This document shows positions 11,817 through 18,037 of a stretch of DNA of 64,000 nucleotides, piece by piece. Position numbers and translations under genes: made by a program. The stretch's first letter is position 1. The number at the start of each line of letters is the position of its first letter. Origin of the DNA: Acidimicrobiaceae bacterium (GTDB lineage: Bacteria; Actinomycetota; Acidimicrobiia; Acidimicrobiales; Poriferisodalaceae); NCBI GenBank assembly GCA_905182565.1, contig CAJJCB010000026.1, positions 124,001 to 188,000 of the forward strand, read 5' to 3'. A model generated the notes under the pieces. The model saw only the letters and a program-made list of their open reading frames with translations, was not told the origin of the DNA and ran no database searches.

Positions 11817-12788
11817 TTAGAATCGAAGCGGATTATCGCTACTCCATTCCATTGACTCTTCGACAAGATTAAATTTCACGTGCTTCCAGGTCAGATCTAT
11901 TGCCTGAGAATTACCTTTGGCTGCTTCCACCATTAATTCAAAGGTGCCATTATCTGTTTCGGTGATTGGACGACTGAGTAGAGCCATAAAGGCCTCTGCC
12001 ATTTCAGAAGTTTCCAACATTCTCGGTTGCCAGCGCCCAAATACTTTCTTGTTATTAGCAAATTCGTCGGTCATTGAAGTTCTAATGAATGGGAACATAA
12101 GAGAAAAACAATGAACTAAGTCAGCGTCTTTTCCAAGATTGACTTTAAGAACCTTTGGTAGCTGTAACACTGCCCAGTTGCTTATGGCATAGCCAGGTAC
12201 TGCTGCTCCAGGATCAATAGCTTGGCGCGACGAAACATAAACGAACTGGATAGGTTCGTTGTGATAGACCGCTTCACCCGCCCAGAGGTGAGTAGATGCC
12301 AAAAAACCATCTATTTTGGTGTCAAGAACCAACTTTGACTGCTCTAAATTTGCTAAGAAATCTTGACGCACTCGTGCTCTTCGGACTGAGGTAGGCTCTC
12401 CTTCTTTTTCTCGAAGTGCGCGACCGAAGCTGTAGCCGGATTCGGTCAAGCCAGAGTTGCAAATCACTAGATTCGGCGGAAGTCCACCCATTTGTTCGAT
12501 GACGTAGGAACGGCAAGCCCAAAGGTCTCTGAGGTTAGTTACATCTGCTTGTACCGGGAAAGCATTAACTCCCTGCGACCGAAGTTCGTTTACAAGTTCG
12601 AAGCCATCTTCGTAGCTTCTATGAAAGTGAACGCCAACCGAATCCGCCCCGTTGAGCCCAGTGCATAGAGCGAATGCTTGTCCGATGCCGCCATCTTTGC
12701 CCGCTCCGGTAATAAAAACCCGCTTGCCTTCAACAGCGGTGCGGTACTCATCGAACCGGAACTTGTCAGTGACCGCTGTGTAAGACAT
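11817..12788 (-). CDS. SDR-family protein with catalytic Lys replaced by Asn
   Basis: A 323-residue short-chain dehydrogenase/reductase. The cofactor loop is FITGAGKDGGIGQAFAL and the NAG-like motif is degenerate (LVICNSGLTESG). The active-site spacing Ser187-x12-Tyr200 is intact, but the third catalytic position of Y-x3-K is Asn204 (GYAISNW). There is an unusual insert around residues 125-150 and a long C-terminus. The altered triad suggests changed or lost redox chemistry unless another residue takes over the lysine role. It is the last gene of the minus-strand operon that holds MaoC, the UGSC pair and the LEH-like protein. Confidence 0.75.
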   Translation of the reverse strand: MSYTAVTDKFRFDEYRTAVEGKRVFITGAGKDGGIGQAFALCTGLNGADSVGVHFHRSYEDGFELVNELRSQGVNAFPVQADVTNLRDLWACRSYVIEQMGGLPPNLVICNSGLTESGYSFGRALREKEGEPTSVRRARVRQDFLANLEQSKLVLDTKIDGFLASTHLWAGEAVYHNEPIQFVYVSSRQAIDPGAAVPGYAISNWAVLQLPKVLKVNLGKDADLVHCFSLMFPFIRTSMTDEFANNKKVFGRWQPRMLETSEMAEAFMALLSRPITETDNGTFELMVEAAKGNSQAIDLTWKHVKFNLVEESMEWSSDNPLRF

Positions 12789-12877: not shown

Positions 12878-13354
12878 CTAATCTATGGGGCGTTTTAACA
12901 TTAAGGCGTTGCGTCTCATGATAGCTACGAGAATGCCATTTTGGTTATGTGCGCGATGCTCAAAAAGAACGATTCCTCGGTCGTTTTTACTACTTGATTC
13001 TCGAGATGAAATTACTTCGGTTTCAACATTAAGGGTGTCTCCATGGAATACTGGCGCCGGAAAATTCATGCTGTCGAACCCGAGATTAGCGACGGTTGTT
13101 CCATGAGTTGTTTCGTGTACCGAAATTCCGACTATGAGGGCTGCGGTAAACATCGAGTTGACTAAAGGTTTCCCAAACTGTGTTTCTTTTTCTGCGTAAT
13201 CAAAATCGAGATGAAGTGCAGCAGGGTTCATCGTCATAGTCGTAAACATAATGTTGTCGGTTTCGGTAACGGTTCGGCGTATCCGATGTCGGACTATGAG
13301 CCCTGGAGTCAGTTCTTCTAGCCACAATCCACCATGAGGTCGGTCATCAATCAT
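12878..13354 (-). CDS. MaoC-like (hotdog) enoyl-CoA hydratase
   Basis: A 158-residue single hotdog-fold protein. The segment TMTMNPAALHLDFDYAEKETQFG fits the MaoC hydratase-2 layout; the usual Asp/His dyad region is modified in this subgroup. It continues with KPLVNSMFTAALIVGISV and FPAPVFHGDTLNVETEVISSRES, typical of actinobacterial MaoC dehydratases. It is expected to hydrate or dehydrate a CoA thioester. It starts 4 bases after the upstream 365-residue gene ends, so the two are co-transcribed. The substrate is unknown, but the operon context points to catabolism of an unusual carboxylic acid. Confidence 0.8.
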   Translation of the reverse strand: MIDDRPHGGLWLEELTPGLIVRHRIRRTVTETDNIMFTTMTMNPAALHLDFDYAEKETQFGKPLVNSMFTAALIVGISVHETTHGTTVANLGFDSMNFPAPVFHGDTLNVETEVISSRESSSKNDRGIVLFEHRAHNQNGILVAIMRRNALMLKRPID

Positions 13355-13358
13355 GGAT

Positions 13359-14456
13359 TCATTGTAGGGTCATAGCCGGAATCTCACAGGCTTGATCGAG
13401 TTCGATCTCTGCATGAACAACAGCATTTTTGTGCGGCCCAGCACACCAAGATGGCATTACCATTGAGTAGAGACCACTACCACCCGCCTGAAACACAATA
13501 ATTTTACTAGGCTCTCGCAGCACCTGAATTAACTCGTCATCGTTCTGATCGTCTCGAACTGAAAATTTTGAGCCCACTTTTCTTAGAGTGCCAACTGAAA
13601 TGGTGGCCCTTTTCGTTAGCTCTGACTGTGTGTCTTCCCGAGTTAAGCCCGCCCGCTTTATTATTTCTGCGTGATCAGGATTAAGAATGATAGAAAATGA
13701 ACCATCGCGCAGGTGAACGTTGTTGCTCCCTGGATTTGCCATGACCATGGAGATCACATTTAGAAGGCAATCTATCGAAGCGGGATCATCTGCATCACCG
13801 CTAAACATTGTTGAATGTGGAGCTTCTGCGCCGGTAATGATTACAGCGCTTTGGTCCGCTTCGTACCCGAACGAGGTGTGTAGTCCAGGGAAAGGACTGT
13901 TTTCTTCATCTTCAGCGATGCAATAAGTAAATTTGCCTGGATGTCCGTGTAGCGACATATCAGAAGTACCAGGACGCGCTCCACCGATATTAAGCATTGC
14001 AAGCCGTAAGGCTCTCCCTATGGAGGCATTAGCACGATGTCCTGGGCCAAGTGCTCCGAAACCTGAAGCGACGCCACCGCATGAGTATCTGGCCGCTCCT
14101 GTGACAATAACTAATGGTGCCGTGCAATGAGTTGTACTTTGCACCTCGGTTAAATCAAATTCGGGTTTGCAGACAGCACGAACTGATGCGACGACAACGG
14201 GTGCGTGATCAGGTGTGCAACCAGCCATAACTGCTGCTACGGCTACTTTTTCAACGGTGGCAACACCGTGCATAGGCCCCATGACCCCTAAATTGAGATC
14301 GGAATCAAGTCCCGTAGCGAGAACCATTCTCGAGACTCGATCAGGTGTTGGCACGACTACAGGAAGGCCATCTGTGCATCCCATTTGGTGGAGATTTTCG
14401 AGGGCATCATTTTCTGATTTAGCATCGAACATGTGAGTTAATTTAGACCGTTTCAA
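13359..14456 (-). CDS. Conserved protein of unknown function paired with the UGSC protein
   Basis: A 365-residue cytoplasmic protein without TM segments. Visible conserved-looking blocks are MGCTDGLPVVVPTPDRV, VAAVMAGCTPDHAPVVVAS, EVQSTTHCTAPLVIVTG, GALGPGHRANASIGRALRL, NIGGARPGTSDM and HPGKFTYCIAEDEENSPF. I recognise this as a protein type found beside UGSC-family genes but know no established reaction for it. Several cysteines sit in conserved glycine-rich loops (MAGC, SCGG), compatible with thiol or selenol chemistry in a complex with its partner. Its start overlaps the UGSC stop by 4 bases, indicating translational coupling and probably a stoichiometric complex (inference). Confidence 0.65.
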   Translation of the reverse strand: MKRSKLTHMFDAKSENDALENLHQMGCTDGLPVVVPTPDRVSRMVLATGLDSDLNLGVMGPMHGVATVEKVAVAAVMAGCTPDHAPVVVASVRAVCKPEFDLTEVQSTTHCTAPLVIVTGAARYSCGGVASGFGALGPGHRANASIGRALRLAMLNIGGARPGTSDMSLHGHPGKFTYCIAEDEENSPFPGLHTSFGYEADQSAVIITGAEAPHSTMFSGDADDPASIDCLLNVISMVMANPGSNNVHLRDGSFSIILNPDHAEIIKRAGLTREDTQSELTKRATISVGTLRKVGSKFSVRDDQNDDELIQVLREPSKIIVFQAGGSGLYSMVMPSWCAGPHKNAVVHAEIELDQACEIPAMTLQ

Positions 14457-14983
14457 CTAGCCAATAACTGAATTATTTTTGGGGCAACATCTGTAGCAAC
14501 TTTACTCATATTATCTTCGCCGCTTCCGGCTATTGGATGTGGCAGCTTTACGCGCGGAATGTCTGGCATTCCTGTCGAGTTCGCAACAAAGTCGCCTTGA
14601 GGCCAAAAGGCTTCGGTAACCAATGCTACTGCCGGAATTCCGAGTCGAGCTGTAAGGATGCTGTCACGCACGGTGCCAGAAGTACAGCTACCTCAATGGC
14701 CGTAGGCAGCTACTATCGCTTGGCACTCAGCCTGAATATTCTCGAGCATTGAGGTGGAGAGAACACTCGAGGCATCGCCTTTGTCGTACCTCACAAACGA
14801 AGCCGAAGGAATCTCTTCGGCTAGTGCTTTTTCAATATGGTCTAGGAAGCGAACGCTTCCAGGAAACCCGTTAGCAACGAGACCAATTGTATGGGTGGTG
14901 TCAATATTGAGACTAAGATCGTATGGCTCTGGAATGGTTTCGGGTTCTCCCCGGGGATCTAGAAACTCGACTACTGCAACCAT
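14453..14983 (-). CDS. UGSC-family protein, predicted selenoprotein with in-frame UGA
   Basis: The frame is 177 codons (176 residues) long if the single internal TGA at 14693-14695 is read as selenocysteine. Upstream it reads ...QAIVAAYGH, then U97, then GSCTSGTVRDSILTARLGIP...AVALVTEAFWPQGDF. This fits the U-G-S-C motif that names the family, in which some members have Sec and others Cys at this place. Sequence on both sides of the TGA is in the same frame and family-like, which argues against random decay. An AAGGGGAA ribosome site precedes the ATG. A SECIS-like hairpin follows the UGA. If UGA is not recoded, the product would be a 96-residue fragment. Biochemical role unknown. Confidence 0.8.
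14661..14679 (-). promoter_or_regulatory. Candidate bacterial SECIS hairpin
   Basis: On the minus strand, 13 bases after the UGA, the RNA reads CUGGCACCGUGCGUGACAG. It folds as CUG/CAG, one G-A mismatch, CAC/GUG, and a five-base loop CGUGC with G in the second loop position. The stem start and the apical loop (about 20 nt from the UGA) fall in the range described for bacterial SECIS elements, which SelB reads next to selenocysteine codons. The stem is short and was folded by eye. Confidence 0.5.
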
Positions 14984-15048
14984 AGAATTTTCCCCTTACG
15001 TTCTATCGCGTCTAGTGCAGACACAAATTCAAGCTTAACCTAATAACT

Positions 15049-15423
15049 TCAGCCTTTGAGCTGTTTCATAAACATGCCATTGTCGAAGTAGTCGCGCCAG
15101 AACATGATTAAACCATTTTCCACTTCGAAGACACCCATGACCTGTAACTCTATTTTCTTTCCGCCGCCGGTGGTAAACCGGTCGATGCGCTCATTCATGA
15201 CCGTGTTGCCACTTGAGGCTTGTCGTATCACTTCAAACTCGACTGGGCCAGGGCCTTTCAAAAGGCCACTTAAAAATTCGGCCATTTTAGTCTTGCCAGT
15301 CATGGACCCGATGGGCACGTTGTCGTAGAAGCAATCTTCAGTCACGAAATCCATTGCTGTATCTAGTTCTCGTCTTTCGATAGCTTTGATAAACCTGTTT
15401 ACAACTTCTTCGGGATTTGCCAT
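15049..15423 (-). CDS. Limonene-1,2-epoxide hydrolase/SnoaL-like protein
   Basis: A 124-residue alpha+beta barrel (NTF2-like) protein. The start at the ATG giving MANPEEVVNRFIKAIERRE fits the family; an upstream TTG would add 13 residues. VTEDCFYDNVPIGSMTGK, VMNERIDRF and MFWRDYFDNGMF match the limonene-epoxide-hydrolase branch, whose active site uses an Asp-Arg-Asp set; NERIDRF and WRDYFD supply such residues. It could hydrolyse an epoxide or act as a cyclase-like enzyme. It is first in the minus-strand operon leading into the UGSC gene, 65 bases upstream, so it probably works in the same pathway. Confidence 0.75.
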   Translation of the reverse strand: MANPEEVVNRFIKAIERRELDTAMDFVTEDCFYDNVPIGSMTGKTKMAEFLSGLLKGPGPVEFEVIRQASSGNTVMNERIDRFTTGGGKKIELQVMGVFEVENGLIMFWRDYFDNGMFMKQLKG

Positions 15424-15482
15424 AAATAGATTCTTGCACTTGTAAAGCCACAATGCTTGCAAGATTGCGCGAAGCTTTGTTT

Positions 15483-16389: not shown

Positions 16390-17097
16390 ATGAGCGAACG
16401 ACTAGTTCACGATATTGGTGGTGATTTAGGTTATGGGCCGATCTTGCATGATCCAGAAGAACCAGTTTTTCACTATGAATGGGAACGTCGCGTTTTTGGA
16501 GTCATGTTTCAAATCCTACGTATTACAGCCCAACGTCCTGGTGAAATGCGGTATGCAATCGAGCGGCTTGCCGAACAAGATTACTTTGAACATGGGGGTT
16601 ATTTTGGTCGGTGGGAAGCCGTGTGTGAGCTTCTTTTAGAGGAATATGGCCATCTGGAAATAGGCGAACTAGATCAGGTTCTTGGTGCGTTAGAAGGTAC
16701 TGGGCCAGCAAGTCGGGCTCGCCGAATAGAAAAAAAGATTTTAAATCTGTTACCAGATGATGTAGAAGTAAAAATCCCTAGGGCCAAAACGGTTCGGCGC
16801 GTATTGCCAAATTCGCCACGTTTTGAAGTGGGGGACCTAGTGCAAGCTCCGGAAACACTTCAAAAGGGGCACACGCGACTCCCAGCCTACGTTGCTGGGA
16901 AACAGGGTTATATTGTTGCGATTCATCCGGCAGAAGTTTTACCGGACTCCAGTGCGCATGGCCTAGGGGAGAGACCTCAACACGTGTATTGTGTGGGCTT
17001 TGACGGAGAAGTTCTTTGGGGCAGTCAAAGTGAAAAATCAATCAAAATCCATGTTGATTTATACGAAAATTATTTGTTACCAGTGAAACAGCATTAG
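16390..17097 (+). CDS. nthB: Nitrile hydratase beta subunit
   Basis: A 235-residue beta subunit. The N-terminus has the family start HDIGGDLGYGPI and EEPVFHYEWERRVFGVMF. The C-terminal SH3-like barrel has FEVGDLVQAPE, KGHTRLPAYVAGKQGYI and RPQHVYCVGFDGEVLWG, which lie against the alpha subunit's metal centre in known structures. The enzyme hydrates nitriles to amides in the cytoplasm. It is first in a beta-alpha-activator operon, the order usual for cobalt-type enzymes. Ribosome site AAAAAGG before the ATG; a TACAAT box at 16351-16356 could be the -10 element. Confidence 0.95.
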   Translation: MSERLVHDIGGDLGYGPILHDPEEPVFHYEWERRVFGVMFQILRITAQRPGEMRYAIERLAEQDYFEHGGYFGRWEAVCELLLEEYGHLEIGELDQVLGALEGTGPASRARRIEKKILNLLPDDVEVKIPRAKTVRRVLPNSPRFEVGDLVQAPETLQKGHTRLPAYVAGKQGYIVAIHPAEVLPDSSAHGLGERPQHVYCVGFDGEVLWGSQSEKSIKIHVDLYENYLLPVKQH

Positions 17098-17105
17098 GAG
17101 TCAGC

Positions 17106-17702
17106 ATGAGTCATGATCACAACCACAGTGCCCGCTCACCGAAAATTCGGATTGAGGCGTTAGAAGATTTGTTGGTGGAAAAAGGTCTAGTCGATCGTTC
17201 TCGAATAGATAATTTGATCCAAAAATTCGAAACAGATCTTGGCCCGATGATTGGTGCTCAATTGGTGGCTCGTGCGTGGACTGACCCTGAGTTTCGGAGC
17301 CGACTGCTAGATGACGCCGATGATGTTCTAGCAAAAGAAAATATTTCAGGGGCTGAAATTGAGCATGTTGAAGTGAAAGCAAATGAGCCGGGTGTGCACA
17401 ACGTAGTCGTATGCACCCTCTGCTCTTGCTACCCCTGGGCGTTATTAGGATTACCTCCGAGCTGGTACAAGAGTCCTGAATATAGGTCGAGAGTGGTTCG
17501 TGAACCGCGGACAGTTCTTGCTGAAATGGGGCTGGATCTCGATGAAGAAACAAAGCTACAGGTCTGGGACAGTAGTTCTGAGACTCGGTTCTTAGTTTTA
17601 CCCGAAAGGCCCAGCGGAACCGAGAATTTATCCGTTGTTGAGTTGGCAGCGTTGGTGACGCGCGATTCTATGATTGGTGTAGCGAAGGCTAAGACGCTAT
17701 GA
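17106..17702 (+). CDS. nthA: Nitrile hydratase alpha subunit, cobalt type
   Basis: A 198-residue alpha subunit carrying the metal claw CTLCSC at residues 103-108 (VVVCTLCSCYPWALLG). Threonine in the second position marks the non-corrin cobalt class; iron enzymes have serine there. The two inner cysteines become sulfinic and sulfenic acids in the mature enzyme. PPSWYKSPEYRSRVVREPR and the C-terminal beta strand are standard. The N-terminus is His-rich (MSHDHNHSARSP). An 8-base gap separates it from nthB, and the downstream activator gene starts within its last codons. Confidence 0.96.
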   Translation: MSHDHNHSARSPKIRIEALEDLLVEKGLVDRSRIDNLIQKFETDLGPMIGAQLVARAWTDPEFRSRLLDDADDVLAKENISGAEIEHVEVKANEPGVHNVVVCTLCSCYPWALLGLPPSWYKSPEYRSRVVREPRTVLAEMGLDLDEETKLQVWDSSSETRFLVLPERPSGTENLSVVELAALVTRDSMIGVAKAKTL

Positions 17703-18037
17703 ATTCGATTTCGTCATTGGAAGGATCTAACGTTGAACCTCCTCGCGAAAATGGTGAGCTTGTTTTTCGGGAACCTTGGGAAGCTCGAGCTTTTGGACTA
17801 GCGGTAGCTTTGGCTGAGACAGAGGCGCTATCTTGGGAATTTTTTCGAAAGAACCTGATAGTTGAAGTGGCCGCCAGAGAGCGCAGTTTGAGAGATGGCG
17901 GTGAGGCTTGGAGCTACTATGAGAGCTGGCTGAAAGCACTCGAAAGTTCAGTTGTTGACGGAGCTATAGTAAAAAAGTCATCGATTGCTGACCGCTGCGT
18001 ATCGTATGCGGCACGGCCGCACGGCCATGACCATTAA
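17699..18037 (+). CDS. Nitrile hydratase accessory (activator) protein
   Basis: A 112-residue protein similar to the N-terminal half of NHase beta (LVFREPWEARAFGLAVALAE, then EAWSYYESWLKALESSVVDG). Such activators deliver the oxidised, cobalt-loaded alpha subunit to the beta subunit by subunit exchange. It ends with ARPHGHDH, a histidine tail that could bind the metal. The ATG overlaps the nthA stop (ATGA), implying coupled synthesis. No amidase follows, so the fate of the amide product is not encoded here. Confidence 0.9.
   Translation: MNSISSLEGSNVEPPRENGELVFREPWEARAFGLAVALAETEALSWEFFRKNLIVEVAARERSLRDGGEAWSYYESWLKALESSVVDGAIVKKSSIADRCVSYAARPHGHDH

Follow-up and report, generated by a model that had tools for sequence, protein, structure and literature searches.

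The window analysed here, a stretch of DNA of 64,000 nucleotides, carries a gene of the UGSC family in which codon 97 is an in-frame UGA; comparison of the gene with its relatives and the Sec machinery of the genome make it nearly certain that this UGA is decoded as selenocysteine (Sec). Leaving the chemistry aside, it is also very probable, to judge from the loci compared, that the gene encodes a UGSC selenoprotein forming a two-gene module with the partner gene downstream. The features of the locus are collected in Table 1.

Table 1. Features of the selenoprotein locus, in positions of the window
Feature	Position	Strand	Remarks
UGSC-family selenoprotein gene (predicted)	14453..14983	minus	176 codons and distal TGA; PF24696 E=4.3e-43; 18 orthologues
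In-frame UGA, putative Sec codon 97	14693..14695	minus	TGA in 19/19 of the subfamily
SECIS-like hairpin	14661..14679	minus	3+3 bp around one mismatch; loop CGUGC, G second
Cys100 codon	14684..14686	minus	likely resolving partner of Sec97 (UxxC); same in all 38 sequences
AAGGGG, likely Shine-Dalgarno	14992..14997	minus	8 bases upstream of the ATG; judged from the sequence
Partner gene, 365 aa	13359..14456	minus	TTG start; 4-base overlap with the selenoprotein gene
MaoC-like dehydratase gene	12878..13354	minus	PF01575 E=6e-21; next on the same strand
Short-chain dehydrogenase-like gene	11817..12788	minus	PF00106 E=1.4e-10
Limonene-epoxide-hydrolase/SnoaL-like gene	15049..15462	minus	PF07858 E=1.9e-26; upstream, same strand

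The original prediction had proposed one reading frame broken by a single TGA, and this is what the minus strand holds: from the ATG at 14983 to the distal TGA ending at 14453, the sole interruption is the TGA at 14695-14693, in the context AYGH-*-GSCTSGTVRDS (minus-strand translation), where Sec97 and Cys100 would form U-G-S-C; the plus strand of 14453-14983 contains several stops and is not open. The match to the UGSC profile PF24696 runs through the TGA, from residue 8 to 174 (147.8 bits against a gathering threshold of 25; profile positions 3-170 of 172). The equivalog model NF041046 ('UGSC family (seleno)protein') gives 112.7 bits (E=1.5e-32), under its curated cut-off of 125, and orthologues likewise stay under it with 104.6 and 111.6 bits; by profile score, the window gene and its orthologues are thus placed as a divergent UGSC subfamily outside the equivalog. 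Both the MaoC-like and the short-chain dehydrogenase-like gene are possible members of the operon; the former is not among the genes common to most orthologous loci. Near the module, on the opposite (plus) strand at 16390-18037, lie genes for nitrile hydratase beta and alpha and a second one resembling the N-terminal part of beta (PF02211, PF02979, PF21006).

Eighteen further loci of the subfamily (AYGHUGSCT[ST]GTVRD) were found, in Acidimicrobiia and Gammaproteobacteria, and all have TGA at the site. Identity to the window protein is 48–57%; the nearest relative (92%) comes from an uncultured Acidimicrobiales metagenome-assembled genome (MAG), which fits the actinobacterial host originally proposed. 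Pairs of a window-type UGSC gene and a partner gene (L103, L104, L105; 53–54% identical) are found in MAGs named Gammaproteobacteria or Pseudomonadales, which suggests horizontal transfer or old spread, the hosts being those given by the MAG names, with bin contamination possible. In the comparison with the nearest relative, dN/dS by the NG86 method comes to 0.045/0.585 before the TGA and 0.028/0.429 after it; purifying selection is as strong downstream of the TGA as upstream, and the conservation of both halves, which had been claimed at the outset, is thereby borne out. A misread TGC or TGT codon is excluded by the same TGA in 18 orthologues. A nonsense mutation, with the protein ending at residue 96 and the remainder a relic, would agree with the use of TGA as a stop elsewhere in the window, but the identical TGA in 18 orthologues from two phyla, the equal selection on either side and the span of PF24696 over both halves leave this reading with a negligible probability; since dN/dS is low on both sides and the TGA is kept in the orthologues, a pseudogene is excluded.

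A search for selA, selB, selC and selD had been suggested as a check, and all four were found in the genome to which the window belongs (2.65 Mb, 95.6% complete). The tRNA-Sec scores 65.5 bits (gathering score 47) and is typed by ARAGORN as SeC with the anticodon TCA; selA scores 392 bits, selB, which adjoins it, 271 bits, and selD 348 bits. The selD gene (L018 / L025, G000 C12:21547-22488) has one in-frame TGA, in SHGAG-U-ACKLGPDDLA, and is itself predicted to encode a selenoprotein. Two UGSC genes are present in addition to that of the window, each of the three with one in-frame TGA. The same genome contains three short PrdB-like genes (L138, L139 and L140; G000 C26:104900-107000, 241000-243200 and 483400-485800); in every one the frame contains a TGA, at U-P-[VL]-C, and TIGR04483 is matched with E values of 2e-28 to 3e-46, under the cut-off of the model. 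With selD, the three UGSC and the three PrdB-like genes, the predicted selenoproteome comprises at least seven genes. In other genes of the window and at the distal end of the UGSC gene itself TGA is an ordinary stop, and UGA is therefore not simply reassigned.

The region following the UGA appears constrained beyond its coding function. The codons GGC, ACC, GTG and GAC of residues 103, 104, 105 and 107 are invariant in 19 sequences (codon entropy 0 bits, while 32 further invariant residues average 1.27 bits). A hairpin can be drawn here, starting 13 nt after the UGA; with the U of that codon numbered 1, it spans positions 17-35. Its outer stem of 3 bp is followed by a G/A mismatch, the inner stem CAC/GUG and a CGUGC loop whose second base is G. 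Over the 19 sequences 99.1% of the cells are paired, and in two of the six pairs both bases are exchanged (C-G/G-C and C-G/U-A); the covariation score is reached by none of 500 shuffles, slid registers fail, and RNAalifold returns the same hairpin unprompted. The window hairpin sequence alone has a stability like that of its shuffles (z -0.37), so the SECIS assignment rests on comparison: the two marks by which a SECIS element is judged here, a hairpin closely following the UGA and a G in its apical loop, are both seen across the 19 sequences. In other UGSC subfamilies and paralogues the hairpin is longer and strong; there, Trp (TGG) instead of Cys (TGC) at residue 103 goes along with GTC instead of GTG for Val105, which restores the pair, and in two of the three homologues with Cys97, TGG stands with GTG and the pair is broken. 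That the UGA is read as a residue other than Sec, by general reassignment or plain readthrough, is very improbable: an open frame across a TGA names no residue by itself, but TGA serves as an ordinary stop, the genome has the full set of sel genes and a tRNA-Sec whose anticodon is TCA, a hairpin appears to be maintained after the UGA, and the alignment of homologues, also proposed beforehand, showed only Sec (TGA) or Cys at the site in those examined.

Within the class, UGSC is found in 139 of 395 genomes, most copies having exactly one TGA and some none, and an in-frame TGA is frequent among the UGSC genes of Acidimicrobiia. The stop-free copies L034, L036 and L048 have the Cys codon TGC at the Sec site. 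Among the matches listed, a strong tRNA-Sec is present in 98 of the 106 genomes with a TGA copy and was not detected in the other 8, some of which are incomplete or fragmented; of the 21 genomes whose match is stop-free, 11 are without it (again among the matches listed, and approximate, a few matches being partial). While position 97 is Sec or Cys, G98, S99 and C100 are invariant in 38 sequences; the UxxC pair formed by residues 97 and 100 is invariant together with K68, D107, H149 and P150. Viral contigs scanned with UGSC and the partner gave no relatives.

The partner belongs to a family of about 360 aa that matched nothing in Pfam or NCBIfam and had no convincing relative in the PDB, and a homologue lies immediately downstream of the UGSC gene in 19/19 loci of the subfamily. 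Residues C80 and C179 of the partner are invariant. The 4-base overlap of the two genes that had been noted at the distal stop holds in the window if the partner starts at the TTG at 14456, start and distal TGA then sharing TTGA, and such overlaps are seen in most orthologues; it may be absent should translation begin at an internal ATG, which is the start in L100, the nearest relative. Both genes occur together in 133 of the 142 genomes that have either, with the partner alone in 3 and UGSC alone in 6 (Fisher p about 2e-93, a descriptive value which ignores the shared ancestry of the genomes). Among the matches listed, 116 of 140 partner matches adjoin a UGSC match, all on the same strand, the partner coming first in 107 pairs and UGSC in 9; partner matches lacking an adjoining UGSC gene partly reflect UGSC matches outside those listed. 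The genome of the window has four partner copies, two of them with an N-terminal thioredoxin-like domain carrying CPTC. The fourth copy (L029, G000 C24:173334-174389), which has the CPTC domain, is without a UGSC gene within 1.5 kb and is located beside triosephosphate-isomerase-like and SecG-like genes. Kinship of the partner with GrdE/PrdA was rejected (hhalign probability 0.1 against PF09338 proteins), and the complex is therefore not simply protein B of glycine reductase; comparison of the partner with the N-terminal half of GrdB was negative as well.

For the UGSC protein, the best AlphaFold2 (AF2) model (pLDDT 88.8, pTM 0.84) was built from 7 sequences only, the five models varying from 88.8 to 64.5. 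In the predicted structure beta and alpha elements alternate through five units, and Sec97 comes after strand 89-95, where helix 98-113 begins; the model matches Rossmann- and flavodoxin-like folds (flavodiiron proteins, azoreductases, PurE, LarB), matches which are usual for such a fold and carry no functional information. A relation to the reductase selenoproteins GrdB and PrdB is probable, not proven. PF07355 (GRDB) stops one residue before Sec, leaving the Sec part of GrdB outside the model (L116-L122), and actinobacterial GrdB genes were therefore read through the TGA (...ILTST-U-GTGTRCGSTLAKELERAGIPT...). Aligned with the Sec domain of GrdB/PrdB by hhalign, the UGSC profile gives a probability of 89.5% and a score of 46.9 over 132 columns, Sec falling on Sec, and still 70.2% and 38.8 with Sec masked; 200 column shuffles stay at or below 19.5, and the controls with the reversed profile and with the profile of the unrelated partner score 12.0 and 12.7, respectively. 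As the signal is weak with the short PrdB-like genes alone (9.5%) and reaches 32% when only the long GrdB rows are used, and as the alignments are small, the link is put no higher than probable. A UGSC paralogue from the genome of the window (L021) matches TIGR01917 (glycine reductase selenoprotein B) around Sec with E=1.6e-4, far under the cut-off; a Pfam/NCBIfam profile search gave no match of PF07355 or TIGR01917 to the window protein at E<=1, and neither UGSC nor the GrdB-like domain had a relative by sequence in the PDB.

Two other views of the chemistry have to be weighed. A hydratase- or isomerase-like enzyme formed by UGSC and its partner, with Sec as a nucleophile and no net redox change, is quite improbable. 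It could be argued from a weak Foldseek match (E=2e-4) between the partner and class I fumarate hydratase, weak matches of UGSC to PurE/LarB-like folds and the MaoC gene among the neighbours; but the AF2 model of the partner is poor (pLDDT 69.3), the fumarate hydratase match, with a TM of 0.26 and an rmsd of 15–17 A, is too weak to build on, and some partner paralogues have a thioredoxin-like domain. Sec is, moreover, mostly found in redox sites. Somewhat better placed, and still unlikely, is the view that UGSC has a thioredoxin fold and acts as a peroxidase or thiol-disulfide oxidoreductase whose substrate protein is the partner. The UxxC motif and the CPTC domain of some partner paralogues are in its favour, as is the published view of UGSC, to which a 'likely Trx-like fold' has been given (PMC2398784, PMC13188914). 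Against it stand the resemblance to GrdB/PrdB and the five beta-alpha units with their Rossmann/flavodoxin-like matches, although predicted from a shallow alignment; the UGSC fold is on this prediction Rossmann-like, and a Pfam search found no thioredoxin family match for the protein.

The reading we prefer, plausible if on balance doubtful, is that of a two-subunit Sec-dependent reductase working, by analogy, like glycine or D-proline reductase. Apart from this chemistry, UGA 97 is in all likelihood decoded as Sec by the SelA, SelB, SelC and SelD of the cell, steered by the short SECIS hairpin, and the UGSC product is very probably one subunit of the two-protein module, the partner probably being translationally coupled to it through the 4-base overlap. 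Sec97, at the N-terminus of its helix, may attack an electrophilic substrate bound together with the partner, Cys100 may resolve the Se-adduct as a selenenylsulfide, and a thioredoxin-type protein may re-reduce the latter, a step proposed because some paralogous partners carry an N-terminal CxxC thioredoxin-like domain. By analogy, the pair would thus reduce a polarised bond of its substrate; attack on a polarised carbon has been discussed for the Sec of glycine reductase and of a fluoroacetate-cleaving relative (PMC10838667). The neighbouring genes, encoding P450, MaoC, short-chain dehydrogenases and an epoxide-hydrolase-like protein, suggest a catabolic role. Taken in all its parts, the proposal would be that UGSC and partner are a new class of Sec-dependent two-subunit reductase, common in Acidimicrobiia, akin to the Sec domain of the anaerobic glycine and proline reductases, having an unrelated second subunit and fed by thioredoxin, with translation of the partner tied, in the window subfamily, to UGA decoding via the overlap; so complete a scheme is rather unlikely to hold throughout. 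If it did, selenium supply would set the output of both subunits in that subfamily.

The gene very probably encodes the actinobacterial selenoprotein that it was first taken to encode; its novelty was overstated, because UGSC selenoproteins have been described since 2008, actinobacterial ones included (PMC2398784, PMC5029168, PMC5330540, PMC13188914), and UGSC-motif selenoproteins are cited in Geodermatophilaceae (PMC5330540). They rank among environmental selenoprotein families of the highest abundance, with a large environmental set (PMC2398784), and the papers searched list the family without going into its function. According to PMC2398784, UGSC also occurs fused to an unnamed domain, Unknown_1, which might be the partner family. 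New here are the linkage of UGSC with the partner and the partner family itself, which is without a Pfam or NCBIfam model and is a clear annotation gap; new, too, are the resemblance of the UGSC profile to GrdB/PrdB and the predicted Rossmann-like fold of UGSC. Neither the linkage nor the relation to GrdB/PrdB was found in the literature searched, most subscription journals lying outside the search. Together they give a concrete, testable idea of the role of UGSC, and they suggest that Acidimicrobiia and Gammaproteobacteria possess a counterpart to the Sec-dependent reductase chemistry known from anaerobes.

Among known systems, the window protein is closest to the UGSC selenoproteins (PF24696; NF041046; PMC2398784), with which it shares the U/C-G-S-C motif, the length, the full-length profile match and apparently the encoding of Sec by in-frame UGA; it differs in that its subfamily has His, not Asp, before Sec, and that the partner gene is located downstream, not upstream, and is without the thioredoxin-like domain. 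The UGSC proteins of Geodermatophilaceae are likewise actinobacterial selenoproteins, but employ UAG and a tRNA-Sec with a CUA anticodon, whereas the window gene has UGA and the anticodon TCA. With the thioredoxin-fold UxxC selenoproteins (Prx-like, Trx-like) UGSC has the UxxC motif in common and differs from them by its predicted Rossmann-like fold. From GrdB and PrdB, the Sec subunits of glycine, sarcosine, betaine and D-proline reductases (PF07355, TIGR01917, TIGR01918, TIGR04483), it is set apart by the missing N-terminal half of GrdB and the lack of a direct PF07355 match, by a partner unrelated to GrdE/PrdA in profile comparison and by a host genome that carries catabolic genes of the oxygen type, P450 among them; what the two probably share is the C-terminal Sec domain, over 132 columns, with the common motif U-G-x-x-T...GIP...P.G/A.
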